Source: a virus. Taken from it: a DNA stretch of 30,066 bases. Under the pieces are notes generated by a model. The model was not told the DNA's origin. It made no database searches and was given only the letters and a program-made list of their open reading frames with translations. The DNA is taken from the IMG/VR virus record IMGVR_UViG_3300031726_000034, positions 1-30,066 of that record; one strand, given 5' to 3'. This document shows positions 10,033 through 28,480 of this stretch, piece after piece; within the stretch, counting starts at the first letter, position 1, and each line of letters starts with the position of its first letter. A program made the translations under genes and the position numbers.

Positions 10033-10305
10033 CTAGTTGACGGTGAAGTACCCGCAGTCCACGACCGGTTCGATGTCACCAACGAGGCCGGTGACCTTGG
10101 CCCAGATCCGCCACACTCCCGGGCTCAGCCCGTCCACGAGCACACCCATGCTGCCGTCCTCAAGAATCAGCGGGTCATCCCAGACGGTGGGGCGGGTGTG
10201 GTAGTCGGTCATGGCGATCTTGACCCCGACGGTGACCGGGGTGGTGCCGTCAAGGACCACGACCTGCTGAGGCTCGTTGGTCTCGCGGGGGTAGTCGTTG
10301 ACCAT
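10033..10305 (-). CDS. Small beta-sandwich virion protein, 90 aa
   Basis: The protein begins MVNDYPRETNEPQQVVVLDG; the ATG overlaps the stop of the repeat protein by one base (TGATG). The sequence alternates hydrophobic strands (TPVTVGVKIAMTDYH, SMGVLVDGLSPGVWRIWAKV, VVDCGYFTVN) and looks like a single Ig-like or baseplate-upper-protein-like beta domain. It follows the long repeat protein and probably works with it on the virion. No specific function can be assigned. Confidence 0.6.
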   Translation of the reverse strand: MVNDYPRETNEPQQVVVLDGTTPVTVGVKIAMTDYHTRPTVWDDPLILEDGSMGVLVDGLSPGVWRIWAKVTGLVGDIEPVVDCGYFTVN

Positions 10306-13145
10306 CAGGTTCCCTTCCCGGTGCCGACCCGCTCCGGCGGCAACGCGCCGGTCCAGCCGCGCTGGCCGAGCGCACCAACAGTGCTGCGTGCTCTCAGGTT
10401 AGTCCCGGTCCAGCGCCGTACCGGTAGCGAACCGCTCATGTCGACATCCGGTGGTGGCCGGTGCCCGATCACGGCCAGCAGCCCGCCGCCGGACAGGTCG
10501 GCGCTGCCCCCGATGGACACGGCGGCGGCCTCTAGGGTCAGGGACCCGTCCCCGGACAGGACCAGCGGTTGGCTCGCGGCGATGATCGCGGTCAGGGTCA
10601 GGGACCCGTCCCCGGACAGTCCTGCCGCCGATCTGGTGCGGGGGGTGCCGCTGGCGCTCAGGGACCCGGCCCCGGTCAGGGTGGTGGTCCCGTAGGCGTC
10701 GATGTGCTCGACGGCGACGCCGGTGGCTCCCAGTGCGCCGGACCCGCCCAAAGTGGCGGTCCCACGGTGGCCGGGAGCGCCGCCGATCCCGAGGGTGCCC
10801 GCCCCGCTCAGCGACGCGGCACCGCTGGTGGTCAAGGACCGTGTGGTGCTCAGGGCGCCGGACCCGCCCAGTGTCGCCGCCGCAGCCACGGCAGGGACCC
10901 CGGAGGTGCTCAGGGTCCCCAAGCCGGTAAGGGTCGCGCCGGACCCGAGTCCCGCCGCGCCTGTTGCGCTCAGTGCACCGGAACCGTTCAGGGCCACGGC
11001 GACGGCGATGGTGGGGGCGCTGCCGGTCACGGTCAGGGTGCCCGCCCCGGACAAGGGCACGTTGGTGGACTGGCCCCCGACCACGATCAGGGCGCCGGAC
11101 CCGGACAGGGAGGCCGTCCCGGTGACGGTGAGGGCGCTACCAACCGGCCCGAGGGTGCCCGCCCCGGCCAGCGCCGCCGACGCAGCAGGTTTGGGGGTGC
11201 CGGTCGCCGACAGGGCGCCCGCCCCGGCCAGCGCGACCGAGCCCAGCAGCCCGGGTGCCCCTGCGCCACTGAGGGTGCCAGCACCGTTCAGGGCCGCCGC
11301 GCCGCCCTTGGGCCATGGCAGGCCCGTCAAGGTCAGCGCGCCAGACCCGCTCAAGGTGGCAGTGGTGTGGATCTCTGGTTCCTGCTCGCCGATGGCCAGC
11401 GTGCCGCCGCCGCTCAGGGTGGCCGCGCCGGAGTAGCCGAGGACCCCGGCGGCGGACAGGGTTCCGGTGCCGCTCAGCGTGGGAGCGCCGCTGATCGCGG
11501 GTCCACCCGCGAAGGCAAGGGTGCCCGCCCCGGACAAGGCGGCAGTCCTGAGGTAGCCCGGGACGCCGCTGACCCCCAGAGCACCAGCCCCGGACAGGGA
11601 CGCGACGGCGGTAATGGCGGGAGTTCCGCTGACCCCGAGGGCGCCGGAACCGGACAGGGCGAGCGTCCCGGTGTAGCCCGGCATCCCGGCCAGCCCGAGG
11701 GTCCCCGACCCGGTCAAGGCTGCCGTGCCCGTGTAGCCCGGCATCCCGGTCAGGCTCAGGGTCCCCGACCCGGTCAAGGGGGCCGTGCCGGGGATGGCCG
11801 GGGCTCCACTGACGCTCAGAGCACCGGCCCCGGACAGGGTGTCCGCGCCGCCGGGTGCTGGCACCCCGGTGGTGTTGAGCGCCCCCGCACCGCTCAGGCT
11901 CACCGTCGCGGTGATCGCCGGGTTGCCCACGGAGGCGCTCTGGGTGGACGTTGAGCCGTTGGCGGCTCCGGTCCATGCGTAGGTCAGGGCCGGGGCTGCG
12001 GCTGTTGAGCCGTCGAAGTAGGCACCCACTGTGCCCGACCATTCGACCAAAACCGAGTCGATCTCCACGTAGTCGCCGATGCTGCCGGATGCGGCCACGT
12101 CCACATCCACCCGCAGGGTGGTGTTGCCTGCCGGGACGGTCCCCGAGTAGGTGACCCGCTGGTAGGAGCCGGTGATCGCCGTGGAGCCGCCAAGGATCTC
12201 ACCGGACACGTCCCACAAGGCCCGCATGGCGACGCTACGTCCGGTGGTGCCTCGCACGTACGCCGAGATGGAGAACGGCTGGCCGACGCTGACCGCGAAG
12301 GTCTGGCCGGTCAGGATGAACCTTCCGGTCGTGGTCGCGGTCAGCCGTGCGCAGCGGTCACCGGCCCACCCGGCGCCACCGCTGGGGTTGGTCACGGTGG
12401 GACTGCCGCCGGAGCCCCACACGCTCCACCCGGCGGTGTCTGTCTCAAAACTTGGGTTGGTGCACTGGTTCGTGCGGGTCACCACGGCGTTGAACGACAG
12501 GGCGCCACCGCCGCTGAGCGTGCATGTCCCGGTGATCGCGGGGGCGCCGACCGCCATCCGGGGCGCCACCGAGTAGGTCCGCAGTTGGGAGAACTCGGGG
12601 TAACTGCCAGCGCCGAGGGTGAAGGTCCCGGCGGGGGCGATCGCCGGGTAGTACATGTCGACCCCGGCGCCGACGTCGTTGGGGATGCCCCGCCCGAAGA
12701 CGGCGAACACGTCCCCGGCGCTGACGGTGACTCCGGCAGGCCACGTCACCACGTTGCTGCCCCCTGCGCTGAGCAGCGGCGGAACGGTCAGCGTCCCGCT
12801 GTCCCACGCCACGGTGTACTGGTTCAGGGTGCCGGTGGGGTGCAGAACGTAGGCGTTGAACGTGTAGCCCGCCGAGCCGCTCTGGTTCCACGTCTGGAAG
12901 TCGGCCAACACCCCGGCAGGCAGCGGGGTGTTCAGCAGCGCCACAAGAACCAGCGGGGAGGTGTCGGTTGCTGAGGCGCGATCGGCGGACACCGAGTTGC
13001 CGTAGGTCGCCGGGCCGAGCAACAGCGTGCCGCTGCCACTGAACGCACCCGCCCCGACAAGTGGGGTGTCAAGGGTGTAGATCCCTGAGCCGTCCTCCAA
13101 CAGGAGGCGGTCGGTGCCAGATTCCAGCAGGTAGCCGTCACTCAT
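10305..13145 (-). CDS. Long tandem-repeat virion surface protein with carbohydrate-binding-like module, 946 aa
   Basis: Residues 1-45 form a short N-terminal region (LLESGTDRLLLEDGSGIYTL). Residues about 45-200 look like a beta jelly-roll (LVLVALLNTPLPAG, SAGDVFAVFGRGIP). Residues about 226-375 resemble a CBM4/9-type galactose-binding fold: TNPSFETDTAGWSVWG, then FSISAYVRG and YVEIDSVLVEW. Residues about 416-902 contain about 24 units of 18-24 residues with consensus LSGxGxLxxxGxP plus about 7 variable residues. Single degenerate units also lie before the CBM (about 28-45 and 206-225), so the module is nested in the array. The array is unusually rich in Gly, Ala, Ser and Thr and probably folds as a beta-solenoid or extended fibre. 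The C-terminal 45 residues are basic. The gene lies between the capsid and neck genes, so it could be a capsid fibre or a tail fibre. Its Ser/Thr-rich repeats are possible acceptors for the glycosyltransferases encoded upstream. Confidence 0.8.
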   Translation of the reverse strand: MSDGYLLESGTDRLLLEDGSGIYTLDTPLVGAGAFSGSGTLLLGPATYGNSVSADRASATDTSPLVLVALLNTPLPAGVLADFQTWNQSGSAGYTFNAYVLHPTGTLNQYTVAWDSGTLTVPPLLSAGGSNVVTWPAGVTVSAGDVFAVFGRGIPNDVGAGVDMYYPAIAPAGTFTLGAGSYPEFSQLRTYSVAPRMAVGAPAITGTCTLSGGGALSFNAVVTRTNQCTNPSFETDTAGWSVWGSGGSPTVTNPSGGAGWAGDRCARLTATTTGRFILTGQTFAVSVGQPFSISAYVRGTTGRSVAMRALWDVSGEILGGSTAITGSYQRVTYSGTVPAGNTTLRVDVDVAASGSIGDYVEIDSVLVEWSGTVGAYFDGSTAAAPALTYAWTGAANGSTSTQSASVGNPAITATVSLSGAGALNTTGVPAPGGADTLSGAGALSVSGAPAIPGTAPLTGSGTLSLTGMPGYTGTAALTGSGTLGLAGMPGYTGTLALSGSGALGVSGTPAITAVASLSGAGALGVSGVPGYLRTAALSGAGTLAFAGGPAISGAPTLSGTGTLSAAGVLGYSGAATLSGGGTLAIGEQEPEIHTTATLSGSGALTLTGLPWPKGGAAALNGAGTLSGAGAPGLLGSVALAGAGALSATGTPKPAASAALAGAGTLGPVGSALTVTGTASLSGSGALIVVGGQSTNVPLSGAGTLTVTGSAPTIAVAVALNGSGALSATGAAGLGSGATLTGLGTLSTSGVPAVAAAATLGGSGALSTTRSLTTSGAASLSGAGTLGIGGAPGHRGTATLGGSGALGATGVAVEHIDAYGTTTLTGAGSLSASGTPRTRSAAGLSGDGSLTLTAIIAASQPLVLSGDGSLTLEAAAVSIGGSADLSGGGLLAVIGHRPPPDVDMSGSLPVRRWTGTNLRARSTVGALGQRGWTGALPPERVGTGKGT
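10440..11900 (-). repeat. About 24 tandem in-frame repeats of roughly 60 bp
   Basis: The period is mostly 60 bases, with some units of 54-72, and encodes the LSGxGxL unit of the 946-residue protein. On the plus strand each unit shows a conserved core resembling gccccggacagg or gacccggtcaag, with divergent sequence between. Copies differ enough at the DNA level to be readable individually, apart from close pairs such as around 11680-11790. Confidence 0.93.
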
Positions 13146-13187: not shown

Positions 13188-14699
13188 TCACTCCCATGAG
13201 TAGTCGTACCCCACGACGTGGGCGATGGTGCCCGAGGTGCCGACCGTGCCGACATGTTTGGCGACCAGCGCCACGTACTCGCCGGGGTTGACGTAGACCG
13301 GGGCCTCAAACTGGAACGTGCCACCGCCGGGCTGGGAGATCAGGGTGCTGACCGCCTGCGCTGCGGTGATGGCCTGCGTCAGCGGCGGCAGGGCAATTCG
13401 GCGGGGGGCCTTGGCGGTGCCGGTGGCGAACGAGCCTGTCTCGGTGGTGTTCAGGGGCAGGGCGGTGTGGCCGAACGCAAGGCTGTACTGGGTCACCGCA
13501 GGGCCACCGGCCAGCACGGTCTGGACGTAACTGGCCAGCGACACGCCACGGATTTTGAGCCTGCGCCCGGCCACGGTCGTTGAGCCTGCCGGGACAAGGT
13601 AGGAGCAGATGATGAGGTCGGTGTTGACCGCTGCGGTGAACGTCTCCCAGAACTGACCGCCCATGCCGGTGCCGAGGGCTGCGGTCGTGTTGGTCGGCAC
13701 GGCAGCGGACGGGTTGGCGCTGTTGGCGTAGGAAGCCAGCGAGGCGGGAGACGCCTGACCCGAGAGCGACTGGTAGGAACCGAAGACCCGGTTGCCGGTG
13801 GTGCCGAGGGTGTCGGCGTAGACCGGGCCTCGGATCATCACCCGGTAGTCGGAGATCAGCGCTTGAGTCGCTGCCCCGGCGGCGCCACCGACGATGGCGT
13901 GCCGGATCGACCACGGCAGGGCCACCGACTTGCACGAGAACCCCGCTGAGGGGTTCGGGATCTCCCCGTACAGGACGTCGTTGATCCAGAACGTGGTGGA
14001 CACGTTGGTCATCTGAAGGCGGTACTTGTTGACGTTGTTGTTGGTGTACGCCCACGTGCCGGTGCCGCCCGAGAGCGGGAACACGCTGGTCGTGGTCTCG
14101 GTGCCGGAGGAGTTGATGACTCCCTGCAAGCCCGCCGAACTCATCCGAAAGTAGGCCCCGTCCAGCCCGAGGAACGCGGTGGACGCGCCACGCTGGAACA
14201 GGCCGAAGTCGATGACCGTGTTGGCGTTGGGCTGGGCGGTGAACGCCACGCTCGTCTCGCACACGGTGGTCTGGGTCCCGCCGACCGGGAACATGGCGAA
14301 GGTGCCGAACGTCATCCCGGTGGCGGTGGTGGTGATCGCTGCCGAGTTGGTCAGCAGCCCCGCCGCGCTGACCGTCGCGGTCAACGTGGTGAAGGCGTGG
14401 GAGTGCTTGCCGGTGTTCTGGGCGGTGTAGTTGAAGTTCTCCTGATCCAGCAGGTTGTCGGTGGAGACCCGTGCCCGGTTGTCTTGGTCGACGTCAAGGC
14501 CGAGGGTGCGCCGCACCCCGGTCTTGGCCCCGTTGTCGACCTCGGCGAACAAGGTGACCGCCCCGGCGTTGACGTCGCCGCCGCCCCGGGCCACACCGTC
14601 CTTGTCATACCCCGGCAGGTTGGCCCGCAGGTTGTAGTCGGCGTCGACATTGGCCAGACCTGCCGAACTGTTACCGCCGTCGATGGCTGCCATGAGCAT
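13188..14699 (-). CDS. Large beta-rich virion structural protein, 503 aa
   Basis: Two starts are possible: ATG at 14699 (MLMAAIDGG) or ATG at 14693 (MAAIDGG). AGGA lies 9 bases before the second, which I favour. Residues 1-90 read as a virion-anchoring segment (SAGLANVDADYNLRANLPG, RARVSTDNLLDQENFNY). The central part, residues about 100-300, is lectin-like beta structure with alternating Thr/Ser strands (TGMTFGTFAMFPVGG, FWINDVLYGEIPNPSAGF). The C-terminal domain ends NPGEYVALVAKHVGTVG and HVVGYDYSWE, a type of ending shared by phage fibre and decoration proteins. No enzyme motif is visible. It belongs with neighbouring genes to the appendage group. Confidence 0.75.
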   Translation of the reverse strand: MLMAAIDGGNSSAGLANVDADYNLRANLPGYDKDGVARGGGDVNAGAVTLFAEVDNGAKTGVRRTLGLDVDQDNRARVSTDNLLDQENFNYTAQNTGKHSHAFTTLTATVSAAGLLTNSAAITTTATGMTFGTFAMFPVGGTQTTVCETSVAFTAQPNANTVIDFGLFQRGASTAFLGLDGAYFRMSSAGLQGVINSSGTETTTSVFPLSGGTGTWAYTNNNVNKYRLQMTNVSTTFWINDVLYGEIPNPSAGFSCKSVALPWSIRHAIVGGAAGAATQALISDYRVMIRGPVYADTLGTTGNRVFGSYQSLSGQASPASLASYANSANPSAAVPTNTTAALGTGMGGQFWETFTAAVNTDLIICSYLVPAGSTTVAGRRLKIRGVSLASYVQTVLAGGPAVTQYSLAFGHTALPLNTTETGSFATGTAKAPRRIALPPLTQAITAAQAVSTLISQPGGGTFQFEAPVYVNPGEYVALVAKHVGTVGTSGTIAHVVGYDYSWE

Positions 14700-14703
14700 C
14701 GTC

Positions 14704-15081
14704 CTATCCGATTTGGTACTGCACGTATCGTTTGCCGACCACCGGCCCGGGCACCGCCAACGCGGTCAGGGCAAACGAGCCGGTCCCGCTCTTGGCTGAC
14801 AGGATCAGCCCGTCCCACGCCCAGTCGTCCCCGACCCGCCCGGCGGCGACCTTGCCGGACGGGGCGACCGCTACCCGCGTGGTGGCGGTCACGGCGGCGT
14901 CGCTGATGGTGAACGTCTTGGACCATGCCGGGGTCGCGCCAAAGTCGATCTCCACCTGTGTCCAGACCAGCCCTGCGGTGGTGACCTTTTTGGAGACCCC
15001 GCCTTGGACGACAGGCAGGACCTCCGTGCCGTCCAGCGGCAAGGTCGCAGAGGTCAGTGCGCTGACCTTGGTGTCAGCCAC
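14704..15081 (-). CDS. Small virion protein with fibre-type N-terminus, 125 aa
   Basis: The GTG at 15081 follows the previous stop by three bases. The N-terminus MADTKVSALTSATLPLDGTE, then VLPVVQGGVSKKVT, is a recognisable phage attachment motif found at the start of tailspikes and fibres. The rest is a beta domain (VEIDFGATPAWSKTFTISD, TTRVAVAPSG, GTGSFALTALAVPG). It may be a separate adaptor that anchors a neighbouring appendage protein. The ribosome site is weak, so translation is probably coupled to the gene before it. Confidence 0.65.
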   Translation of the reverse strand: MADTKVSALTSATLPLDGTEVLPVVQGGVSKKVTTAGLVWTQVEIDFGATPAWSKTFTISDAAVTATTRVAVAPSGKVAAGRVGDDWAWDGLILSAKSGTGSFALTALAVPGPVVGKRYVQYQIG

Positions 15082-15084
15082 CGG

Positions 15085-15441
15085 CTAACTCTGGGTGTAG
15101 GTGTAGGTGACGGTGAACGTGCCTTGGCTGGCGAACGCCTGCGAGGTGATAGATGCGGAGTCGCGCACGTCAGCGGTGGTCTTGGTGCCGCCGACACAGA
15201 CCCCGGCGTAGGTGACCGTGGTGCCCGCACCGACGTCGAACACGGGGGCTCCGGTGATCGCCGAGGCCGACGCGGCGCCCCACGACATGGCCTTGCGCTG
15301 GTAGACCGGGGAGCCGCCCGCCACCTCGTTGGTGGCCGCGTCGGCGGTGCCGGGGTCGCCGGTGAACAGCGCACCGTAGGGGGCAGCCGCACCGTAGGCG
15401 GTCGCCATCGCATTTCTCTGGGTCAGGTTACGGATCGCCAC
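15085..15441 (-). CDS. Small virion protein, paralogue of a minor tail protein, 118 aa
   Basis: It starts with GTG at 15441, 10 bases after AAGGAG and three bases after the previous stop. The protein runs MAIRNLTQRNAMATAYGAAA, then GALFTGDPGTADAATNEVAG, GGSPVYQRKAMSW and FDVGAGTTVTYAGVCVGG. The GGSP-Y-RKA core and F-D-x-x-AGT element match the minor tail protein at 1324-1722. The family is common in actinobacterial phages as small fibre-associated domains. A structural role is likely; whether it sits on head or tail is unknown. Confidence 0.7.
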   Translation of the reverse strand: MAIRNLTQRNAMATAYGAAAPYGALFTGDPGTADAATNEVAGGSPVYQRKAMSWGAASASAITGAPVFDVGAGTTVTYAGVCVGGTKTTADVRDSASITSQAFASQGTFTVTYTYTQS

Positions 15442-15444
15442 GGG

Positions 15445-15678
15445 TTACTCCTTCAACAGGTGGGCCGGGATAGAGGTTTCGCCGTCCGGCCCGCCGGGAC
15501 CGTAATCCGGCTCTTGAGAGACGCTGACCTGCGGCCAGCGTGTCCGCGCGTCCGCGACGTAGGCATCCAGAATGGACTGGGGCACGTAGTCCACCGCCTC
15601 GTGTGTCGGGGCGGTCATGGTCACCTTGAACTTCACGTCATCGGCCACATTCGCAGGATACGGAGCAATCACAGCCAT
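15445..15678 (-). CDS. Small hypothetical protein, 77 aa
   Basis: The protein is MAVIAPYPANVADDVKFKVT followed by a helix (YVPQSILDAYVADARTRW) and an acidic, Gly/Pro-rich tail ending IPAHLLKE. No family is recognised. It lies 18 bases after the beta-helix gene and three bases before the next start, so it is within the operon. I see no clear ribosome site before the ATG, which leaves the start uncertain. Confidence 0.5.
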   Translation of the reverse strand: MAVIAPYPANVADDVKFKVTMTAPTHEAVDYVPQSILDAYVADARTRWPQVSVSQEPDYGPGGPDGETSIPAHLLKE

Positions 15679-15696: not shown

Positions 15697-17499
15697 TCAT
15701 GTCGCACGGGCCAAGACGACGGGGGCGTTGGCCACCACGCTGTTCGCCCCGGCGTTGGCGGGCAGCGCCCCCGGGCTCAGCCCGGTTTGGAGCACGCCGT
15801 TGTAGAGGTTCGCGCTGAACCCTGCACCCGCGTTCCACTGGACCGGGCGCAGCCGCCCGGAGTGGGCACGGACCGTCGGGTGTGAGGTGGGCGCACCCTC
15901 GGTCTTGAACGCCAGCCATGACGCGCCCGCCGGGAGCGTCGCGGTGATCGGCTGCTGGTAGAACCCGGCAGCCTGAGTGCCGTCGATGGGGGAGGTGGTC
16001 TCGGCGATCAGGGCGCCGGGTTGGCCGCCGTTGTCCGCGTAGACCCCGAGGCGGATCACCGACCCGGCTGATCCGGCAATCGTGATCTCCATGCCGAGTT
16101 GGTCGATGGCGGTGTCGGTGTCCACGATGATCGGCGAGTAGACAATTCTCCCATCCGTCTGAGCCACTACCTGCACCCCGGCAGAGCCGGGAGGCAGGTA
16201 GTAGGACCCGCCCCGGGTCCGTACCGGGGTGGTGTAGCCCACGTTGACGCGGGCCACCACGCTCAGGCCCGCCTTGAACGTGTTGCCCCGGTAGGTCCAC
16301 CCGGCGCTGTTGGCGGTGTGCGCGTTGGTGAACACGTTGTCCATGACGCGGGTGGTCCCTGAGGCCCACGTGCTGATGGTGTCGCAGGTCGACCCGAACC
16401 GGTTGCCGGACACGAACAGGTCTACTGCTGCGCTCTTGGCCGGGAAGTCGGTGTCGTACAGGTAGACCTTCGCGTCGAACGTGTTGTCGATGATGCGGAC
16501 GTCGTTGAACGTCGACGAGCCGGTGTTCTCGGTGCGGCTCTGGAAGACGAACCCTTTTTTGGAGGGGGAGATGGCGTCGATGGTGGTGTTGCCTTGGACA
16601 AGGATGTGGGACATGTCCGTGGCGTTGGTGTAGGGCTCACGGCGCAAGGTGATGGCCCCGTAGCCTTTGCTGGCTGAGGCGCACACCAGATGGTTGAACA
16701 GGACGTCGATGTAGGAGGCGCCCTCGGTGACGTTGACACCGGTCCCGTTGTAGTGAACCTCGTTCTTGTCGATGGTGATGTGCCGGGCGAAGTTGATGAC
16801 CTGCGGGCCGTCCTCACAGCCGGTGATGTAGTTGTTGCTGATCCACCCGCCGTTGACCTCCTGATACTCGATGGCCTTGTTCGCCGTGGTGGTGATGGTG
16901 CAGTGCTCCACCCGCCAGTTGGTGTGCTGGGCGGCGAGGCGGTCGGTGTTGGCGGCGGCGGTGCCGGTGTTCTTCACGGCCCCGACCGCGATGTTGGTGT
17001 CGTTGATGACGCAGCCTGTCACGGTGATGTTGTCGCTGTGCGCCAGCGGTGTGCCGTCCTGCCGGGACTGGATGCCTTGGACGTAGGCGCCGACCGGCAG
17101 GCCCACCACGGAGTGGTTGGCGTCGATGCGTAGGTCCTCGATCGTGACGTTGCTGACCCCGGTGTTCGCGTCTCCGAGGTCGATGACGTGCACGATCCGG
17201 CCTGCGTCCAGAACCAGTGACGGGTCGAGCACGAGGCGGGTGAAGTTCTTGACCCCGCGCAGCCGCACGTTGGAGGCGAGTTTGAGGCAATACCTGCTGG
17301 CGCCCGGGGAGACCTTGAACGTGTGGGGTGAGAGCAGCACGTCGACCCCGTTGCCGCCTGCTGCGCCGACTGCGGTGTCGATGACCCGCTGGATGGCTGC
17401 GGTGTCGTCGACGGTGCCGCCCCCGACCACCCCGCCGACGCCGGGGCTGATGGTGGTCACTGAGATCCCTGAGGCGCTCTGGCCGCTGATCCGGCTCAT
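15697..17499 (-). CDS. Right-handed beta-helix spike/fibre protein, 600 aa
   Basis: The ATG at 17499 (MSRISGQSASGISVTT) overlaps the previous stop in an ATGA. Residues about 28-60 carry the pectate-lyase-3/tailspike opening VGGGTVDDTAAIQRVID. Residues about 75-410 contain repeated beta-helix rungs, for example NVTIEDLRIDANHS, NITVTGCVINDTNI, HITIDKNEVHYNGTGVNV and VRIIDNTFDAK, each with the Asn-rich turns of PbH1 repeats. Residues about 430-600 form a separate beta-sandwich with IRLGVYADNGGQPGALIAE, a frequent C-terminal domain of phage appendages. The fold suits binding or cleaving polysaccharide, but I cannot identify a catalytic set. Its gene is translationally coupled to the glycosyltransferase cassette and lies in the head region, so it may decorate the capsid rather than the tail. 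Confidence 0.82.
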   Translation of the reverse strand: MSRISGQSASGISVTTISPGVGGVVGGGTVDDTAAIQRVIDTAVGAAGGNGVDVLLSPHTFKVSPGASRYCLKLASNVRLRGVKNFTRLVLDPSLVLDAGRIVHVIDLGDANTGVSNVTIEDLRIDANHSVVGLPVGAYVQGIQSRQDGTPLAHSDNITVTGCVINDTNIAVGAVKNTGTAAANTDRLAAQHTNWRVEHCTITTTANKAIEYQEVNGGWISNNYITGCEDGPQVINFARHITIDKNEVHYNGTGVNVTEGASYIDVLFNHLVCASASKGYGAITLRREPYTNATDMSHILVQGNTTIDAISPSKKGFVFQSRTENTGSSTFNDVRIIDNTFDAKVYLYDTDFPAKSAAVDLFVSGNRFGSTCDTISTWASGTTRVMDNVFTNAHTANSAGWTYRGNTFKAGLSVVARVNVGYTTPVRTRGGSYYLPPGSAGVQVVAQTDGRIVYSPIIVDTDTAIDQLGMEITIAGSAGSVIRLGVYADNGGQPGALIAETTSPIDGTQAAGFYQQPITATLPAGASWLAFKTEGAPTSHPTVRAHSGRLRPVQWNAGAGFSANLYNGVLQTGLSPGALPANAGANSVVANAPVVLARAT

Positions 17500-18200
17500 G
17501 GTGACTGCACCATTTCGATGGTGACCGTTCCGGCGCTGGCAGGGGTGACGGTGGCGGTCATCAGGGGAACGAACCCCAGCCGGGCGGCGAAGGTGACGGT
17601 GTACGGTCCGCCTTTGGGGCCGGTGACCTGCACGTCGTGGGTCCCTATCGGGCTCCCCATAAGACTCCACCGGTGCGACCCGGCCAGACTCCACCGGTGC
17701 GAGCCCCTGATGTCTCCGGGCTGCCAGTTTCCTGCCATGGTGCCGACGAGGGCCTGCTGAATGACGACGGGGTCGGGTCTCTTGTTGGACGCGGCGGCGA
17801 CCGTGATCGGCTCGGTGCTCCAATCACCGATGGACAGCGTGAACGTCGCCCCCCACGGGGTGTCGCTGAGGGTGATGGTCTGGATGACGGGAATGAGTTT
17901 GCTCAGCCCGGAGATCAGGACGTTGACGTCTTGGGTGTTCAGGGCGGTGACCGCATAGACGATGTCCTCAGTCTCCACCGGCAAGGGGGAGTCCCCGGTG
18001 TTCAGGTCGAGGAACAGGCTCTCCCCTGCGGCGACGGGCCAGCCGGTGGCCGTGGTGACATCAGGACCGCCGAGGTACACCGTCGCGCCTCCGGGCGGGA
18101 CTTTCACCGCCAAGGTGGCGCCCGGGATGGCGTCCGGTTCAGGCTCGTGGAGTATGGTCGCGCTGACCCCGACGGTGACCACGCTCGCTCGCAGGCTCAT
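17496..18200 (-). CDS. Beta-rich virion structural protein with 8-aa internal repeat, 234 aa
   Basis: The ATG overlaps the GT4 stop by four bases. Residues 1-90 form a small beta domain with VKVPPGGATVYLGGPDVTTA and TGWPVAAGESLFLDL, a pattern common in phage structural and decoration proteins. Residues about 100-170 form a second domain (IQTITLSDTPWGATFTLSIG, then a helix DPVVIQQALVGTM). Residues about 170-195 hold two copies of GSHRWSLA/M followed by GSPIG, an insertion before the last strands. It is co-translated with glycosyltransferases before it and the beta-helix protein after it. It may be the base or adaptor of that appendage. Confidence 0.65.
   Translation of the reverse strand: MSLRASVVTVGVSATILHEPEPDAIPGATLAVKVPPGGATVYLGGPDVTTATGWPVAAGESLFLDLNTGDSPLPVETEDIVYAVTALNTQDVNVLISGLSKLIPVIQTITLSDTPWGATFTLSIGDWSTEPITVAAASNKRPDPVVIQQALVGTMAGNWQPGDIRGSHRWSLAGSHRWSLMGSPIGTHDVQVTGPKGGPYTVTFAARLGFVPLMTATVTPASAGTVTIEMVQSP
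17662..17709. repeat. 24-bp direct repeat, two copies
   Basis: The 17-base core agactccaccggtgcga occurs at 17662-17678 and again at 17686-17702, a 24-base period. Each copy contains the palindrome CACCGGTG. It encodes the GSHRWSL repeat in the 234-residue protein. Confidence 0.9.
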
Positions 18201-19354
18201 GGCGTCAGCCTAGAATCCGGGCACATGTGATGCGAGGCGCCACGCGGCGTTGACAGTGCGCGGCGGCGCAGGGCACGGGTGACCTCATCGGTGTAGGTGT
18301 TCTCCCAGTCCCGCCAGCGGACCCTGATGTCTTGGGCGCGGACCCGCAGGTAGGCGCGTTCGGCAGCCTGCTCGCGCCGGGCCGGGTCGACCAGTGAACG
18401 CAGGCCATCCATCCACCCGGCGGGGGTGCGTGCCAGCGGCCCGCCGCCGAACCATCGCTGCTCGGGTAGGTCGGCGGCCACGAACGGGATGCCCGCAGCC
18501 GCGTACTCCATGGCCTTGATCGCAGACTTGGCCCGGTTGAACGGATGGTCGGCCAGCGGCACGATCCCGATGTCGAACCCGGTCACGATGCCCGGGTAGT
18601 CGATCACCGGGACCAGTGGCATCGACGGGCCGCGCCGGTGGGCGGGGATGTGCAGGGCGTCGTAGGCGGACGTGTCGCCGGGGTGCAGGGCGCCGTGGTG
18701 CACGAACGTCCCATCGACCTCCTCAAGGAACCCGGGCAGGACCCCGGCGAGGGTCTCAAGGTCTCCCGAGCGCCACGGTGTGGCCCCGCACCAGCCCACG
18801 ACCAGTCCGCTGCTGACCGGGCGCACCGGGTAGTGGGCAAACGCGGGCAGGTCGATCATGTTCCGCAGGGTCCGCACCCGGGTCCCTTTGGCCCGGTAGT
18901 GCCCGGCCAGATACGGCGTGGAGCAGGTGGCCATGGTCGAGGCGGCGATGGCAGCGGCGTAGTGCTCCCGGTTGACGTCGGGGTGACGGGCCGGGTCGGT
19001 CGACTCATACGCCCGGTTGGTGGGGTGCAGCCGGTCAAAGTGGTCGTCGACGTCGTTGATGACGACCTGCCCGAAGGTGCGCGCCTCGGCGATGTGCGCC
19101 GGGGCAAGGTGGTGCATCCATCGTTGCAGCACCACCACCTGCGTCGGCTCTAGGGTCAGCGGGCGGTTCTGATCGTCGATCGGGATGAGTGCCCCGTCGC
19201 GGCGCCCGGCGACCCCCACCCCGACGTAGACCTCGTGGCCGCCGTACTGGTCCAGTGCCCCGGCGGGCTGGTGGACCCGTGCCCACCCGGAGCCGCCGGG
19301 CGCTGGGCCACGGTCGGTCTGGTAGTGGTCGGCGCTGATGAACGCGATCCTCAC
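18197..19354 (-). CDS. GT4-type glycosyltransferase, 385 aa
   Basis: I chose GTG at 19354 as start: it overlaps the previous stop as GTGA and follows GGGAGG by 7 bases. An in-frame ATG lies 15 bases further upstream. The N-terminal Rossmann half begins VRIAFISADHYQ with the Gly-rich GPAPGGSGWARVHQPAGAL. It continues QVVVLQRWMHHL and VVINDVDDHFDRL, an Asp-rich element also seen in other phage glycosyltransferases. The C-terminal half has SGLVVGWCGATPWRSGDL and then FNRAKSAIKAMEYAAAGIPF, the GT4 donor-binding helix with the conserved Glu. It should transfer a sugar from a nucleotide donor onto an unknown acceptor in the host cytoplasm. The acceptor is probably a virion protein, since the next two genes are structural and coupled by 4-base overlaps. 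Confidence 0.85.
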   Translation of the reverse strand: MRIAFISADHYQTDRGPAPGGSGWARVHQPAGALDQYGGHEVYVGVGVAGRRDGALIPIDDQNRPLTLEPTQVVVLQRWMHHLAPAHIAEARTFGQVVINDVDDHFDRLHPTNRAYESTDPARHPDVNREHYAAAIAASTMATCSTPYLAGHYRAKGTRVRTLRNMIDLPAFAHYPVRPVSSGLVVGWCGATPWRSGDLETLAGVLPGFLEEVDGTFVHHGALHPGDTSAYDALHIPAHRRGPSMPLVPVIDYPGIVTGFDIGIVPLADHPFNRAKSAIKAMEYAAAGIPFVAADLPEQRWFGGGPLARTPAGWMDGLRSLVDPARREQAAERAYLRVRAQDIRVRWRDWENTYTDEVTRALRRRALSTPRGASHHMCPDSRLTP

Positions 19355-19956
19355 CCGAACGCCTCCCATCCGGGCCACCCGGGGGTCCAGTCGAACACCT
19401 TGGGCTCGCGGGGGCCGCGCCCGATCCACGCCTCCGCCTCGTGCCTGTTGTCGTGGCGCAGCGGCGGCAGGGTCCGCAGGTACTCGTTGGTCGCCCACCA
19501 GAAGTTGCCCCCGAAGTACGGGGTGTCGACCCGGAACTGGGCGCCGGGGGTCAGCCAGTGGCAGCCCACCGCGTCCATGCCGCCCTCCATCTCGGCCACG
19601 CACGCCCGCCAGTTCCGCATCAGGACCGACATGGACCGGCGCCACGCGTCGTTGAACGCGCTCGGCGCAGCGGCGCCCTTGGTGTGGGTGTAGAGCGTCG
19701 CCCCGTCGAACTGTTCCAGTTCGGCGGCCAGCACCTCCAATGTGACCTGCTCCCAGCCCTCCGATGCTTGGGCGCACACCGCGAACTTCACGCCCGTTCC
19801 GTGCAGGAAGTCGATGACCGGGTCAGGGTTAGGCCCGACGATCCCGACCCGCAGTTCGGCGCCGAACCCGCTCTCACGCATCGCAGCCAGATGCTCACTC
19901 AGCGGCACGTACCACGAGCCTGCCGCGTAGACGTGGTGGTAGTTGCGGACCTTCAT
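19351..19956 (-). CDS. Putative glycosyltransferase-like protein, 201 aa
   Basis: The ATG at 19956 overlaps the methyltransferase stop (ATGA). The sequence has a Rossmann-like start, KVRNYHHVYAAGSW, then ATLYTHTKGAAAPSAFNDAW and RRSMSVLMRNWRACV. A distinctive PYFGGNFWWATNEYLRTLPP segment follows, then RHEAEAWIGRG. The HTKG---N--WR block resembles rhamnan-synthesis F-like glycosyltransferases, and the GGNFWWA block recurs in phage and capsule glycosyltransferases. I assign the class from these patterns and from the neighbouring GT4 and methyltransferase genes. The exact reaction is unknown. Confidence 0.65.
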   Translation of the reverse strand: MKVRNYHHVYAAGSWYVPLSEHLAAMRESGFGAELRVGIVGPNPDPVIDFLHGTGVKFAVCAQASEGWEQVTLEVLAAELEQFDGATLYTHTKGAAAPSAFNDAWRRSMSVLMRNWRACVAEMEGGMDAVGCHWLTPGAQFRVDTPYFGGNFWWATNEYLRTLPPLRHDNRHEAEAWIGRGPREPKVFDWTPGWPGWEAFG

Positions 19957-20546
19957 GGCCCGGCTTTCCTGATGAAGCACAGGTTGTGCCGGAACTCGAT
20001 GACCTCGATGTCCTTCTCCAACTGGGTCAGGGGGCTGCCCCGGAACTCGGGCCAGTTCACCCCGTCGCACAGATCCTTGAGGTACTCCATGGTCGGGGTC
20101 GGGCTGCCCATCTGCCACTCGGGCCAGTAGGAGGTTTGCAGGTCCTCGATGACGTAGGTCCCGCCGGGGTTCAGGTGGGCGAACAGGGTTTCCAGCGAGC
20201 AGATGATGTGGGCGGGCACGTGGGAGCCGTCGTCGACGATCAGGTCGAACGGGCCGTGTGTTGTGGCGACGTGGCGCAGGAACTTCGCGTCCGCCTGCGA
20301 GCCGCGCAGGACGCTGATCCGGGGCTGGTCGGCTTCCAGCCGGGGGGCGATGTCGATGCCGAAGATGTCGGCGCGCGGGAAGTAGTCCCGCCACATCAGC
20401 AGCGAGGCGCCGTCAAGGACGCCGATCTCAAGGACCTTGCCGATGGAGTCCGCCGCCGCGCCGAGGTGCTCCTCGTAGGCGCCGGTGTACTCGTGCGGGA
20501 CGGCTTTGTCGGTGCCGTACTTGATCGCCAGATCACGCAGGGTCAT
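19953..20546 (-). CDS. Class I SAM-dependent methyltransferase, TylF/MycE-like, 197 aa
   Basis: The protein begins MTLRDLAIKYGTDKAVPHEY, where KYGTDK is the N-terminal hallmark of macrocin-type O-methyltransferases that act on sugars. The SAM-binding motif is VLEIGVLDGASLLMWRDYF with GIDIAPRL as the acidic second strand. Further motifs are DLIVDDGSHVP and a late GGTYVIEDLQTSYW. At 197 residues it is near the family size. Family members methylate hydroxyl groups on deoxysugars, so with two glycosyltransferases downstream it probably methylates the transferred sugar. There is no visible ribosome site; a 6-bp hairpin instead abuts the ATG. Confidence 0.83.
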   Translation of the reverse strand: MTLRDLAIKYGTDKAVPHEYTGAYEEHLGAAADSIGKVLEIGVLDGASLLMWRDYFPRADIFGIDIAPRLEADQPRISVLRGSQADAKFLRHVATTHGPFDLIVDDGSHVPAHIICSLETLFAHLNPGGTYVIEDLQTSYWPEWQMGSPTPTMEYLKDLCDGVNWPEFRGSPLTQLEKDIEVIEFRHNLCFIRKAGP

Positions 20547-23797: not shown

Positions 23798-26700
23798 TCA
23801 CTCCTTCGCGGCGGGCGGCGCCGGTGGTGGTGTCGGTGCGGGTGGGGTCTGTTCCGGGGGAGTGGGTGGCTCGGCGCCGGGGACGGGACTACTCCCGTCG
23901 CCGTCAGGTGCGGGAGCCCCGTCAGTCTGTGGTGGCGGCTCGGGGGATGCCTCCACGAGGGGGAAGTCGAGCACCTCGTTGCCGATGGCAAGGGACAGGA
24001 AGTCGAACGACAGGTCCCGGTCGGCGACCTTGGGCAGGTCGCCACCCTCCTTGTCGTAGGCCAGCGTGATGTGCGGGGTGAACCCGTGAACCTGCGAGAC
24101 CGCGAACCCGTCACCGTTCAGGGCGTCGGCGACCTTCTGCCGGGCGGCGTTCAGGCCGGGAGCGTCGACGTTGGCGTAGACCGGGTCGCCCTCGGCGGGG
24201 TCGCCGTTGAACTTGCCGACCCCGTTGATGGTGCCGTCGATCGGGCCGATCCCGGCGGCGGTCGCCGACACGAGGTTGGACAGGTCGTCAAGGTCGGCTG
24301 GCTCGTAGTCGCTGATCTTGCCGAGGTAGGCGAGTGTGACGTGCAGGTCGGAGTCAGGTAGCCCGCCGGGGACCTTCAGGGCCTTGGCGCTGTCCTCGTC
24401 GGGGTACAGGGCGACCATGATGGAGTCGGAGAAGTCGGGGTCGTCAGGGCCGGGATCGTCAGGGCCATCCGGCTCGGCGCCGGGCTGGTCGGTGGTCTCG
24501 GTGGGCTGGGTGTCGGCCTTGTGCTTGCCCCGCCCCGGGCCTTCCATGCCGGGTGCGACCCCGAGGGCCTCCCGGTGGTAGACGTTGCACAGCCCCTCCG
24601 CGCGCACGCCCACGTACGGGCGCAGTTCGCGCACGCACCTGTCAAAGTCGTGGGGCACACCCCACTTGATCTTGGCGGCGCCCTCACCGTGGACCCAGTA
24701 TTCGCGCAGCCGGGTCGCGCCCGGGTTGGCCGATGGGCGGGACGGTCCGGGGGCCGCCCGGTCGGCTTTGCCCTCGGGCACCCCGGCGCCGGTCGAGGTG
24801 TCCGGCACCGGCATCGTGGTGTGGAAGATGCGGGACTGCTCCATCGGCGGGTTGTCCACCCAGATCGCGCCGTCCAGCAGCGGGGCCACCGCCTCAAAGT
24901 TCAGGCCGGAGCGGGACTGGTACTTGTGCCCGGTCATCGGGCTGATGGACTGTTCGGCTTGGCTGACACCTTGGGAGGTGGAGACCCGGCTCGGCACGTA
25001 CCGGCCCGCGAACGGCCCGCCGATGGTCTCCGGCGGTGCCATGTGGCGCCCCGCCGCGTTGATGATCGACTGCCTCAGGCTCCCGTCGACGAACAGGCCG
25101 CGCACCTGCTCGTAGCCTGCGTCACGCAGGTGGGTGACTTTCCTGCTCTCGTTCTGGACGTCCTTGTCGGCGAACGTCCCGTCAAGGATCACGTTGACGC
25201 CCTCGTCGTAGAGCCGGTCCCGCAGCAGGTTCTTGAGGTGACGCGACTCGCCGTGCAGCAGCGAGGCCGCTTCCAGCGGGCCGATGCCGTACTGGGAGGC
25301 GTACTCGCTGGGCTGCAACCCGGCGCGGATGATCTCCTCTTTCATGTCGTCGGGGTTCAACGTGGCGAAGTTCTTTCCGGCGCCGTCGATCCCGATGCTG
25401 CCGCCCTGCTGTTTCAGCACGGTGGTCTTGCCCGACCCGGAGGGGCCAGCCAAGATCAGCGCCCGCCGGTCCCGGGGGACGTCGGCGTAGCCCGCCATGA
25501 TGGAGTCGATGAGCCGTTTGTGCGTCTGGGCACGCTCGGTGGACCACAGTTCCGTCTGATCGCCGTCGGCGCTGGCTGGCAGCGGGTTCCTGTCATGGAT
25601 CGTGGTGGTGTCCCCGAGCCCGGCGGCGGCCTCTTTGAGGCGGGACTCCAACTGCTCGCAGTATTTGTCGTAGGCCGGGTCGGAGCGGGGGTGCCATGAG
25701 GGCCAGCGTGAGCCCCACGGCTGACCGTCTGGGCCGTTGCCCGGGACCGGAGCCCCGAAGTCGATCCCGCCGGGCTTGGCGACCTTGAGCATGGCCTTGC
25801 GGATCTTGGCCTCTTGGGCGTAGTCCCCGGACTTGGCTGCTGCCGCCCACACGTCCCGGGCCTTGGCGTAGTTCTCCGGCTGGGACAGGTCCACGGACGG
25901 GTCGAGGGGGTCAAAGTTGGTGGGGGTGGTGACCATCCGCCCGGCAAGGTTCTGCTGGTCGGAGAGCATCTCCTCGGTCGCGTCGGCTGCGGTGGCGATG
26001 TCGCCCTGTACGGTGCCCGGCTGTTTGGCCAGCGCCGCGTCCGGCGCCGCTGCGTCGTAGGCGTCAGAGTAGGTGCCCGGCCACGCCATCTGGCGGTCAC
26101 GCTTGGGCCTTCCCGCAAGGGCGTCCGTTCTGCCCGCAGCCTGCGCCTCGTCCATCGACCAGTTCATTTGCTCGTCGATGCGCGCCTTTTCGGCTTGGCG
26201 TGCGGGAGTCTGGGCGCGCTCATGGGCCGTCGGGGGCGCCTTAGGCTTGGGTGCTTCCGGCTTGGGGCCACCCTTGGGCGGGATCGGCTCCTGTGCGATG
26301 TCCGCGCCGGTGATCCCTACCGACTTGATCCCGACCGCAGTGGTGAACGCCTTGGTGTAGTCGAGGGCCTCACCGATGTCCATGTCGAGGACCCGGACCG
26401 GTATCGACAGGTCCCCGAGGTGCCCGTCGGCGGCGTCGATGTTCACGAGCATCGCCCACCGGTGGTGGCCGTCGACGATGTACCCGTCGCGGGTCACCGT
26501 GATGGTGCCCTCAGGGATGTTGCCTGCCTCCATCGCCCGGGTCATCCCGGCGACCTGCGAGCCCTTCAACTCGCCTTGGGAAGCGCGCAGGTGGGAGGCG
26601 AGCACGTCCTTGTTCTCCACGCCGATCCCGAGTTCCTCAAGGGCCTTGAGGAACTCGGGCATCATGTCGACCTCGCCCCGGGCGTCGGGGGTCTTCTGGG

Positions 26701-28480
26701 CGGCGATGGAGCCGGGCTCGGGCTCGCCGGTGACCTGCGGCATCTGCTGGCGGGGGATGCCGAGGGTCTCGGCGCAGAACAGGTTGGTCCCCGGGACCGA
26801 GACGTTGCACAGGTTGATGACCGGCGCCTTTTCGCCCTTGGCGACGGCGTCGTCGACCATCACGTTCAGGATGTCCAGCATCGAGGCCACCTCGTCGGGC
26901 TGGTGGAGCCGTACGTGCTTGTCCTCGGCGAGCAGTTTCAGCGCCAAGTTCAGGTCGCCCTTGACGTCGATCGGGTCGTCGACGGTGCCAGTGGCCGGGG
27001 GTGAGGGACGGCCCTCGGTGTGCGGGACGGTCGAGATCGCCGACTGTGCGACACCGGACACGCTGGCGGCGGGCGCGTTCGGCAGGGTGTGCGGCGGTTC
27101 CACCCGATGCGGCAACGGGGCGGTGCCGAACGACGTGTCGGTGCCGGGCTTGGGTGCCTGCCCGGTGCGCTGCGGCGGGTTCGGGTTCTTGGGTTTCTTG
27201 CCGGGCTCCGGCTTGGGGCCGGTCTCCCGGGCGCGTACCTGCTCGGGGGTCCTGCCTGCGGGGGCTTCCGGTTTGGCGGCGGTGTCCTCAGGCATCTTCA
27301 TGCCCGGCGGGAGCCACCCGGGCGCCATCCACGAGTCGCGGCTGTTCAGCCCGTCCCACGCCCGCTGGCGTTCCTGCAACTGGGCGTCGGTGAACGTGGC
27401 CCTGATCCGGTCCTCTTGGGCCTGTGCCTCGGCGGGGTCGCTGGGGGCGCTGCCCTGATCTGGGGTGCTCGCCCCGGCGCCGGGCTGGCGCGCTCGCAGC
27501 CGCGCCCGCTCGTCAGGAGTCAGGGACCCGGGCGGCTCGTAGCCTCTGGGGTTGGGCGGGGCGAGGACGTCTTGGGGGTTGATGAGTGCGGCGACGGCCA
27601 TCTCAGCCGAGCCCTGCGGATTGGTGTCGATCTGTTCCATGAGTATTTGGGCGGCTTGGACGCGGTCGACATCGTTGCCACCACGGACCGCCATGGAGTA
27701 CCGGTCGGTCTCACTCCGCAGCGGGCCACGGGGCAGGCTCTCTACGATCCTGTCGAGGTTGTACGCCTGCGCGACACGTTGACGCCGGTTCGCGCGGGCG
27801 ACCGCACGGCGCTCGTGCCCGGGCGCGCGTGCCTCGTCCGCGTTGATCGGGCCTTGGGCTGCGGCGGGCACCGTGGCGTGGGAGACCAGTTGGCTCACCC
27901 GGCCACGGAACGACGCGTCGCGGGCCGCCCCTGCGGCTTGGGCCTCTGGTGCCTTGGGTGCAGCAGGGGTGTGTGGGGCTTGGATCTCCCGGGCGCCGCC
28001 CGGCGCGGCGGGCGGCTCCGGGGCGGCGCCACGGTGCCCGGTCGCGCCAGCATCGGGGATGCCGCCGTAGCCGAGACGGTCCACGAACCGGCCCTCAGGG
28101 TCCCTGACTACGAGGGCCTCACTGAACCCCCGGGCGCCCCACCATCCGCCGATGTGGATGCCGCCGGTGACCTTGCCGAGCCCGCCGAGTTTCTTGACCT
28201 CCACGTCGTCCAGTTCGCCCTTGGCGGCCCGGGCGGCGTCGTCGGCCATGGCGCCCATCTGGGCGAGGTAGGTCACCGCCTCAAGTTTCAGGTCATCGGG
28301 TGCGGCCTTGCCTGACGGCAGCCGCAGCAGGTCCATGGCGACCTGCTGGATGTCGGTGGTCCCCAACGCGTGGGCGACCTCATCGAGGGTCCGGGCCAGT
28401 CTCCCGTCGGCGAGGCGGATGTCCCACGAGTTACCCCGCAGCCAGTCCTCGTTGGTGACGTCGTCGATGTAGGTACTCAC
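23798..28480 (-). CDS. Giant multi-domain protein: ParB-like, zeta-toxin-like kinase, 2H phosphoesterase (1560 aa)
   Basis: GTG at 28480 follows AGAGG by a few bases. Residues 1-145 are an unrecognised domain with GGIHIGGWWGARGFSEALVV. Residues about 500-720 form a ParB/sulfiredoxin-like domain: KLLAEDKHVRLHQPDEVASM, VSVPGTNLFCAE, then the YIVDGHHRWAM motif (671-675). Residues about 1000-1220 are a zeta-toxin-like kinase: Walker A GPSGSGKTT (1012-1020), LNPDD (1041-1045), HGES (1076-1079), VILDGTF and GRYVPSRV. Residues about 1258-1312 are a small domain, WVHGEGAAKIKWG with Cys1282 and Cys1298, which I recall from actinophage head-gene clusters. Residues about 1350-1510 are a 2H phosphoesterase with HVT (1380-1382) and HIT (1470-1472). 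Pro/Ala-rich linkers separate the parts and end the chain. All three enzyme signatures look intact. No antitoxin gene is adjacent. Position between the ART gene and the protease suggests a head-internal, co-injected protein. That role is inference. Confidence 0.85.
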   Translation of the reverse strand: MSTYIDDVTNEDWLRGNSWDIRLADGRLARTLDEVAHALGTTDIQQVAMDLLRLPSGKAAPDDLKLEAVTYLAQMGAMADDAARAAKGELDDVEVKKLGGLGKVTGGIHIGGWWGARGFSEALVVRDPEGRFVDRLGYGGIPDAGATGHRGAAPEPPAAPGGAREIQAPHTPAAPKAPEAQAAGAARDASFRGRVSQLVSHATVPAAAQGPINADEARAPGHERRAVARANRRQRVAQAYNLDRIVESLPRGPLRSETDRYSMAVRGGNDVDRVQAAQILMEQIDTNPQGSAEMAVAALINPQDVLAPPNPRGYEPPGSLTPDERARLRARQPGAGASTPDQGSAPSDPAEAQAQEDRIRATFTDAQLQERQRAWDGLNSRDSWMAPGWLPPGMKMPEDTAAKPEAPAGRTPEQVRARETGPKPEPGKKPKNPNPPQRTGQAPKPGTDTSFGTAPLPHRVEPPHTLPNAPAASVSGVAQSAISTVPHTEGRPSPPATGTVDDPIDVKGDLNLALKLLAEDKHVRLHQPDEVASMLDILNVMVDDAVAKGEKAPVINLCNVSVPGTNLFCAETLGIPRQQMPQVTGEPEPGSIAAQKTPDARGEVDMMPEFLKALEELGIGVENKDVLASHLRASQGELKGSQVAGMTRAMEAGNIPEGTITVTRDGYIVDGHHRWAMLVNIDAADGHLGDLSIPVRVLDMDIGEALDYTKAFTTAVGIKSVGITGADIAQEPIPPKGGPKPEAPKPKAPPTAHERAQTPARQAEKARIDEQMNWSMDEAQAAGRTDALAGRPKRDRQMAWPGTYSDAYDAAAPDAALAKQPGTVQGDIATAADATEEMLSDQQNLAGRMVTTPTNFDPLDPSVDLSQPENYAKARDVWAAAAKSGDYAQEAKIRKAMLKVAKPGGIDFGAPVPGNGPDGQPWGSRWPSWHPRSDPAYDKYCEQLESRLKEAAAGLGDTTTIHDRNPLPASADGDQTELWSTERAQTHKRLIDSIMAGYADVPRDRRALILAGPSGSGKTTVLKQQGGSIGIDGAGKNFATLNPDDMKEEIIRAGLQPSEYASQYGIGPLEAASLLHGESRHLKNLLRDRLYDEGVNVILDGTFADKDVQNESRKVTHLRDAGYEQVRGLFVDGSLRQSIINAAGRHMAPPETIGGPFAGRYVPSRVSTSQGVSQAEQSISPMTGHKYQSRSGLNFEAVAPLLDGAIWVDNPPMEQSRIFHTTMPVPDTSTGAGVPEGKADRAAPGPSRPSANPGATRLREYWVHGEGAAKIKWGVPHDFDRCVRELRPYVGVRAEGLCNVYHREALGVAPGMEGPGRGKHKADTQPTETTDQPGAEPDGPDDPGPDDPDFSDSIMVALYPDEDSAKALKVPGGLPDSDLHVTLAYLGKISDYEPADLDDLSNLVSATAAGIGPIDGTINGVGKFNGDPAEGDPVYANVDAPGLNAARQKVADALNGDGFAVSQVHGFTPHITLAYDKEGGDLPKVADRDLSFDFLSLAIGNEVLDFPLVEASPEPPPQTDGAPAPDGDGSSPVPGAEPPTPPEQTPPAPTPPPAPPAAKE

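Follow-up and report, generated by a model that had tools for sequence, protein, structure and literature searches.

A repeat protein encoded on the minus strand

The stretch of DNA analysed here (the window) is a virus record of 30,066 bases, IMG/VR IMGVR_UViG_3300031726_000034, and the subject of this report is a minus-strand gene of that record whose 946-residue product is built around a tandem array of units of about 20 residues. The first-pass annotation had noticed about 24 such repeats and gave no strand; the gene is a whole open reading frame (ORF) with an ATG start and a stop codon, and the plus-strand frame over the same interval is interrupted by stops. The strict motif L[STNAG]GxGxL occurs 25 times in the protein, whereas 2,000 residue shuffles average 0.23 and never exceed 3, and one further, degenerate unit, GAGAFSGSGTLLLG, lies at residues (aa) 31–50. 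Twenty-four units stand in tandem, in good agreement with the earlier count, and the 23 intervals between them measure 20 aa in 16 cases and 21 aa in five, with one of 18 and one of 24. Isolated units ahead of the carbohydrate-binding module (CBM), also noticed at first reading, are indeed present: one precedes the module at aa 51–205 and the other stands directly before the CBM. The Gly-Pro ending once given to the unit is better described as a tendency, since Pro at unit position 17 is common but not fixed (about half of the window units; 31% of 542 units from many phages). By eye, aa 1–30 resemble the N-terminus of gp59 of the Methylophilales phage MEP401 (MADGFRILENGDSRITEASVFRITE). The array of the window matches no Pfam-A model, and a collagen-like Gly-X-Y reading, with its period of 3 residues, is ruled out by the observed period of 20.

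Sequence rules and distribution of the repeat

Other arrays were sought with a wobble DNA pattern of three units, which has 8 matches in the window and none in its dinucleotide shuffles; a strict GC-ending version of the pattern failed to match the window. At least 119 stretches in viral contigs match, against only 14 in ∼85,000 genomes of bacteria and archaea, and several of those 14 are other repeats. With duplicates and false patterns removed, the matches listed contain at least 90 arrays, the window's included, of 3–42 units each and with GC contents of 42–75%. Arrays of 29 and 16 units lie in Actinomycetospora (L128) and Phycicoccus (L131/L133) genomes, probably in prophages.

The repeat is strictly phased. 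Among spacings of up to 90 aa (959 units), 692 of 848 are exact multiples of 20 and 97% fall within ±2 of one. Over 542 units the consensus reads G-[TA]-A-[AT]-L-[ST]-G-[SA]-G-[TA]-L-[TS]-A-[TA]-[GA]-x-P-x-h-x, in which L5, G7, G9 and L11 are near-invariant across phages. The overall composition is dominated by Gly (22%), Ser and Thr (25%), Ala (18%) and Leu (13%), and Ser/Thr account for 52% of even unit positions versus 6% of odd ones; as judged from sequence, such alternation is characteristic of a strand that turns one face inward and the other outward.

At the DNA level units of one array are ∼55% identical, and their nearest likeness is seldom to the adjacent unit. Nine of 59 arrays, the window's among them, have adjacent units more alike than in random order (P < 0.05). 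Units 4 and 5 of the window, 88% identical, look like a recent duplication; the window's units are mostly diverged all the same, Tandem Repeats Finder reporting only 2.3–2.5 copies of 60 bp. Because unit DNA has diverged and neighbours are seldom the most alike, it is selection on the protein, and not recent copying, that seems to maintain the repeat pattern. A minisatellite reading was ruled out: the units are diverged, and the array is not like a fast-slipping minisatellite.

Predicted fold of the array

The input to AlphaFold2 (AF2) was a single chain of nine window units, in an alignment with 71 natural array segments taken from other loci. The resulting model (predicted local distance difference test score, pLDDT, 84; predicted template modelling score 0.75) has one strand of 10–15 residues per unit. 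Structural alignment with VIA-align, which re-ranked Foldseek's top chains only and thus covers the families in Foldseek's list, matched it to 3jx8 (Z 13.6, root-mean-square deviation (rmsd) 2.7, 170 residues aligned), 3lyc (Z 13.3, rmsd 2.8, 171 aligned) and the tailspike 6nw9 (Z 12.7, rmsd 2.9, 180 aligned), as well as to many further right-handed parallel β-helices, tailspikes among them.

Independently of AF2, a profile of 72 natural array segments searched against the PDB found the DUF2807 β-helices 3jx8 (4e–5) and 3lyc (2e–4). Pfam detects DUF2807 in 16 of the 72 segments and Fil_haemagg in five, the weak DUF2807 matches carrying a composition caveat; among individual arrays, that of a sister phage described below matches DUF2807 at 3.7e–4, under the cut-off, and that of L109 stands above the cut-off. 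Taken together, profiles and model predict that the array is a right-handed β-helix with one coil per unit. The solenoid proposed from the first reading is thus a prediction with computational support, from the pLDDT of the model and from the DUF2807 and Fil_haemagg matches.

Modules set between the units

Modules lie between units of the protein. The segment directly ahead of the tandem units matches PF02018 (CBM_4_9) with 28.7–29.1 bits, above the Pfam gathering score of 25.9, when scanned alone; a Pfam scan of the whole protein was empty. Relatives of this module occur in minor tail proteins of Arthrobacter and Microbacterium phages and in phrog_14138. The other segment, module A, has no relative in a protein-based scan of viral contigs, nor has the whole 946-aa protein in the same kind of scan, and AF2 run on aa 1–215 without an alignment gave a pLDDT of 32 and no usable fold for it.

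This arrangement is not peculiar to the window. Stretches of at least 100 residues separate successive units in 19 of the 90 arrays, the window's included, which agrees with the early suggestion of a module nested in a longer array. Some of these stretches are recognisable domains, and the domains found before or between array units comprise Laminin_G_3, GDPD, PhoD, Metallophos (calcineurin-like phosphoesterase), apiosidase, GDSL lipase, CBM96 and CBM_4_9. The N-terminal regions of the arrays sort into 36 sets with no similarity detected between sets. GDPD, phosphoesterase and apiosidase-like modules lie between units of the repeat in four loci (L063, L087, L010 and L084), a hint of spikes that cut wall polymers.

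Change of units and module in a sister phage

Downstream of position ∼10350 a sister contig (L031/L137) shares 99.5% identity with the window. Identity falls stepwise into the array gene, to 91, 87, 80, 75, 67 and then ∼50%, and the equivalent interval holds 18 units in the sister versus 24 in the window, with a different module upstream. The last ∼130 residues of the array protein and the 90-aa protein that follows remain close. The sister contig begins inside the array gene, so that its non-matches to the capsid and 503-aa genes say nothing on upstream genes. Unit number therefore varies, both between these close relatives and across the arrays (3–42). As to gain and loss of units, the expected variation in number is found, but adjacent units are mostly not recent copies, as they would be in a fast-slipping array.

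Companion genes and genomic setting

Table 1. Features of the array gene and of its surroundings in the window
Feature	Position	Strand	Basis
90-aa partner gene directly downstream of array gene, W90 family	10033..10305	minus	
946-aa repeat protein, whole ORF with stop, ATG start	10305..13145	minus	
C-terminal tail, aa 904–946, with RRWTG / RGWTG motifs	10308..10436	minus	
Array of 24 units of ∼20 residues, aa 413–903; predicted right-handed β-helix rod	10437..11909	minus	
Nested CBM_4_9-type carbohydrate-binding module, aa 226–412 (Pfam match aa ∼226–350)	11910..12470	minus	
Isolated repeat unit, aa 206–225	12471..12530	minus	
Module A, aa 51–205, no recognised family	12531..12995	minus	
Degenerate isolated repeat unit, aa 31–50	12996..13055	minus	sequence
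N-terminal peptide, aa 1–30, MSDGYLLESGTDRLLLEDGSGIYTLDTPLV	13056..13145	minus	
503-aa protein upstream of array gene, weak family matches only	13188..14699	minus	
125-aa protein of array gene block, no family match	14704..15081	minus	
118-aa Gp80-family fibre protein, PF23140; phrog_240	15085..15441	minus	
77-aa protein upstream of Gp80-family gene; relatives lie beside other arrays	15445..15678	minus	
708-aa ORF with β-helix; tail-spike-like	15697..17823	minus	
Methyltransferase (19953–20546) and glycosyltransferase-type genes near capsid gene	18197..20546	minus	

Two kinds of gene accompany the arrays. The commonest neighbours belong to the Gp80 family (PF23140; phrog_240), which accounts for 24 of the 145 ORFs called upstream and 7 of the 144 called downstream by a simple longest-ORF rule that yields some spurious calls; a dedicated profile places the family beside 41 of the 90 arrays. 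In the window it is represented by the 118-aa neighbour (29.9 bits to PF23140, gathering score 27). The family profile matches PDB 8jou, the fibre I protein gp80 of phage GP4, with an E value of 0.004, a likeness that belongs to this neighbour and not to the array protein. The window phage has three separate Gp80-family proteins, at 1324–1953, 1734–2210 and 15085–15441, all on the minus strand; the first two genes come after the tape measure gene and the third lies in the array block.

The other companion, W90, is a gene for ∼90 aa that begins 1–2 nt past the array gene in 13 loci. Array proteins with two or more Trp among their final 50 residues co-occur with W90 (10/5 versus 3/45, Fisher P = 5e–6), although counting began only after the link had been spotted, and some of these loci had served to define W90. 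The three exceptions to the pairing each carry one RRW, and the window has both the tryptophan tail and the W90 gene. A tblastn search of 50,697 phage records with the W90 proteins of two other loci gave no match. Annotated relatives of the array are a minor tail protein, gp72 of the Mycobacterium prophage prophiFSQJ01-1, and a tail protein, gp59 of the marine Methylophilales phage MEP401 (L145), each of which adjoins a Gp80-like protein (by eye). In MEP401 the neighbouring gp58 and gp59 both end in tryptophan-bearing repeats of the YVKxxGxWK type, possibly an analogous anchor.

The minus-strand gene order of the window runs from a minor head protein-like ORF through a 1,560-aa ORF, a protease and the major capsid protein to methyltransferase and glycosyltransferase genes, then ORFs of 234, 708, 77, 118, 125 and 503 aa and the array protein, which is followed by the 90-aa protein, head–tail adaptor, neck, major tail protein and tape measure. 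The array gene thus sits in a structural block, among capsid, adaptor and tail genes and Gp80-family neighbours. The 1,560-aa ORF (23798–28480, minus) has a P-loop (GPSGSGKTT) region and a 2′-5′ RNA ligase-like C-terminal part and is possibly a multi-domain internal head protein; the ORF at 28494–30065 (minus) may contain an ADP-ribosyltransferase-like segment and resembles a minor head protein very weakly (E 0.089).

The capsid protein shares 51–59% identity with its counterparts in Gordonia and Brevibacterium phages, and megablast of the window against cultured phages gave no match. The phage is siphovirus-like, and its host is probably an actinobacterium. No array, Gp80 or W90 gene was found in the fetched stretches around the capsid gene of 80 capsid relatives, and the distance from capsid to adaptor, 11 kb in the window, is ∼0.7 kb in L213, which has a related adaptor and major tail protein. 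For these reasons the array block appears, on sequence comparison, to be an insertion rather than part of the capsid lineage.

Discussion

We consider it probable, on the whole, that the product of the array gene is a spike or short fibre of the virion surface, carrying modules between the coils of a right-handed β-helix rod. Each 20-residue unit would form one coil, with positions 3, 5, 7, 9, 11, 13 and 15 (A, L, G, G, L, A, G) directed inward and the Ser/Thr/Ala positions outward, and 24 coils at 4.8 Å each would give a rod of ∼12 nm. The helix would act as a scaffold for binding modules, here the CBM_4_9 module and module A, which presumably bind a glycan of the host surface. The spike may be anchored by its C-terminal tryptophan tail and the adjacent W90 protein, and the Gp80-family fibre protein encoded nearby would belong to that appendage too; anchoring at the C-terminus would therefore leave the exchangeable modules towards the N-terminus. 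Judging from sequence and model, the most likely function is that of a receptor-binding spike displaying a carbohydrate-binding module and held by its conserved C-terminal end. An exchangeable, receptor-binding spike shaft is thus our best reading, in which fold, virion location and function are predictions.

Several observations weigh against this reading. Foldseek of the AF2 model against the PDB and BFVD gave no match under E 0.001. Since residue identity is 2% in the structural alignment with 3jx8, this alignment leaves the register of the sequence-profile match unconfirmed. In the array of the window itself there is no match to DUF2807 (PF10988) at E 0.1 (nor to Fil_haemagg, PF05594, which five other segments match), and the composition caveat on the weak DUF2807 matches applies as well. 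AF2 is known to be biased to β-solenoids for repeats (PMC11795689), and this may hold here even though the repeats are imperfect and the alignment natural. The way in which the W90 link was counted should also be borne in mind. Finally, the array gene lies between the capsid and head–tail adaptor genes and not after the tape measure, which leaves attachment to head or tail undecided.

The last point bears on a different placement of the protein, as a capsid (head) fibre or decoration protein that aids sticking to surfaces instead of a tail receptor-binding protein. It would be compatible with the spike shaft, and we hold it to be rather unlikely, if less so than the other alternatives. Besides the position of the gene, it can draw on the neighbouring Gp80 family, whose phrog_240 is named a head protein, and on Gordonia phage Chidiebere, where a gene annotated as tail fiber occupies the same slot; however, the 80 capsid relatives without array, Gp80 or W90 in the stretches fetched around the capsid gene indicate that the block does not travel with the capsid lineage, and in prophiFSQJ01-1 the array comes after minor tail proteins. 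Trimers are common among phage fibres and tailspikes, and the array could accordingly be the shaft of a homotrimeric fibre, an intertwined β-prism or triple β-helix, with receptor binding unchanged. Tail or minor tail proteins among the annotated relatives would suit such a shaft, as would the restriction of the AF2 model to one chain, but the profiles match single-chain β-helix families (DUF2807 and Fil_haemagg) and the monomer model, itself confident, can be aligned to right-handed β-helices of known structure; we regard a trimeric shaft as unlikely.

It is more difficult to reconcile the data with a flexible, mostly disordered linker that merely spaces binding modules, as Gly/Ala/Ser/Thr linkers do. 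Composition and the solenoid bias of AF2 (PMC11795689) speak for it, yet near-invariant L5, G7, G9 and L11 and an exact 20-aa phase are kept in phages of 42–75% GC whose unit DNA has diverged to ∼55% identity, and the in/out alternation is strong; a linker requires neither phase nor alternation, and we think this explanation improbable. Less probable still is that the repeats are O-glycosylated by the phage glycosyltransferases into a mucin-like decorated virion protein, an idea close to the first-pass suggestion that they serve as glycosyltransferase substrates. The outward positions are rich in Ser/Thr, glycosyltransferase and methyltransferase genes lie 5–7 kb upstream, and capsid glycosylation has been suggested for a mycobacteriophage with glycosyltransferase genes (PMC11256854). 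But outward Ser/Thr would be expected of any solvent-facing β-solenoid, no glycosyltransferase family is among the commonest array neighbours, and L158, a capsid and tail relative, has no array and yet carries a sugar-gene cassette in that slot after its capsid gene, for which reason the idea is left unsupported. That cassette (L158 11632–17598) comprises apparent epimerase, glycosyltransferase and methyltransferase-type genes between the capsid and neck genes (by eye from ORF starts).

β-Helix shafts and modular adhesins are already known, and the proposed spike shaft shares features with several of them. In filamentous haemagglutinin and CdiA, coils of ∼20 residues build an extended surface rod with a receptor-binding region between repeat regions (PMC5371414), and five of the 72 segments match the corresponding FHA-1 family (PF05594). 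Unlike FHA-1 proteins, the arrays here form shorter rods (3–42 coils), the window's, which lies in a phage structural gene block, is without a match to that family, and the whole-protein Pfam scan shows no two-partner secretion domain. The DUF2807/GIN-domain β-helices, with their repeated GSG-motif coils, are the best match by both sequence profile and structure, but the window array falls outside that family and differs in its strict 20-residue phase, its L-x-G-x-G-x-L core, its nested modules and its phage context. With the parallel β-helix tailspikes (6nw9, Sf6 4urr) the protein shares the predicted fold class and a presumed role in surface recognition; it differs in its short, nearly regular tandem coils and in binding or catalytic domains that are nested or N-terminal. 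Further counterparts are prophiFSQJ01-1 gp72 and MEP401 gp59, with the same array at 20-aa spacing and a Gp80-like protein alongside, although they have fewer units, no CBM_4_9 noted and different C-termini, and the prophiFSQJ01-1 gene stands at the tail end, unlike that of the window. The few literature searches made found neither a description of the repeat nor a strict 20-residue phage shaft with nested enzymes and W90 and Gp80 companions, and the window array has no Pfam-A model.

The occurrence of the same rod with many different modules in dozens of unrelated phages suggests a common, undescribed way of building adhesins. A bolder version, which we put forward tentatively and as less likely than not, is a hitherto undescribed, widely exchanged display system: a β-helix rod with 20 residues per coil, interchangeable modules for binding or for cutting glycopolymers placed between coils or N-terminally, and a C-terminal tryptophan-tail anchor working through W90 and the Gp80-family protein, whereas phage fibres are usually anchored by the N-terminus. 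The C-terminal tail and its W90 partner offer a directly testable anchoring hypothesis. If the proposal is true, one repeat would account for many unnamed or vaguely named phage proteins, and receptor-binding spikes could be found by sequence alone. The array would also provide a natural rod of variable length into which evolution has spliced enzymes and lectins (GDPD, phosphatases, apiosidase, LamG, CBM), and its modules would help to predict the surface polymers attacked by uncultured phages.

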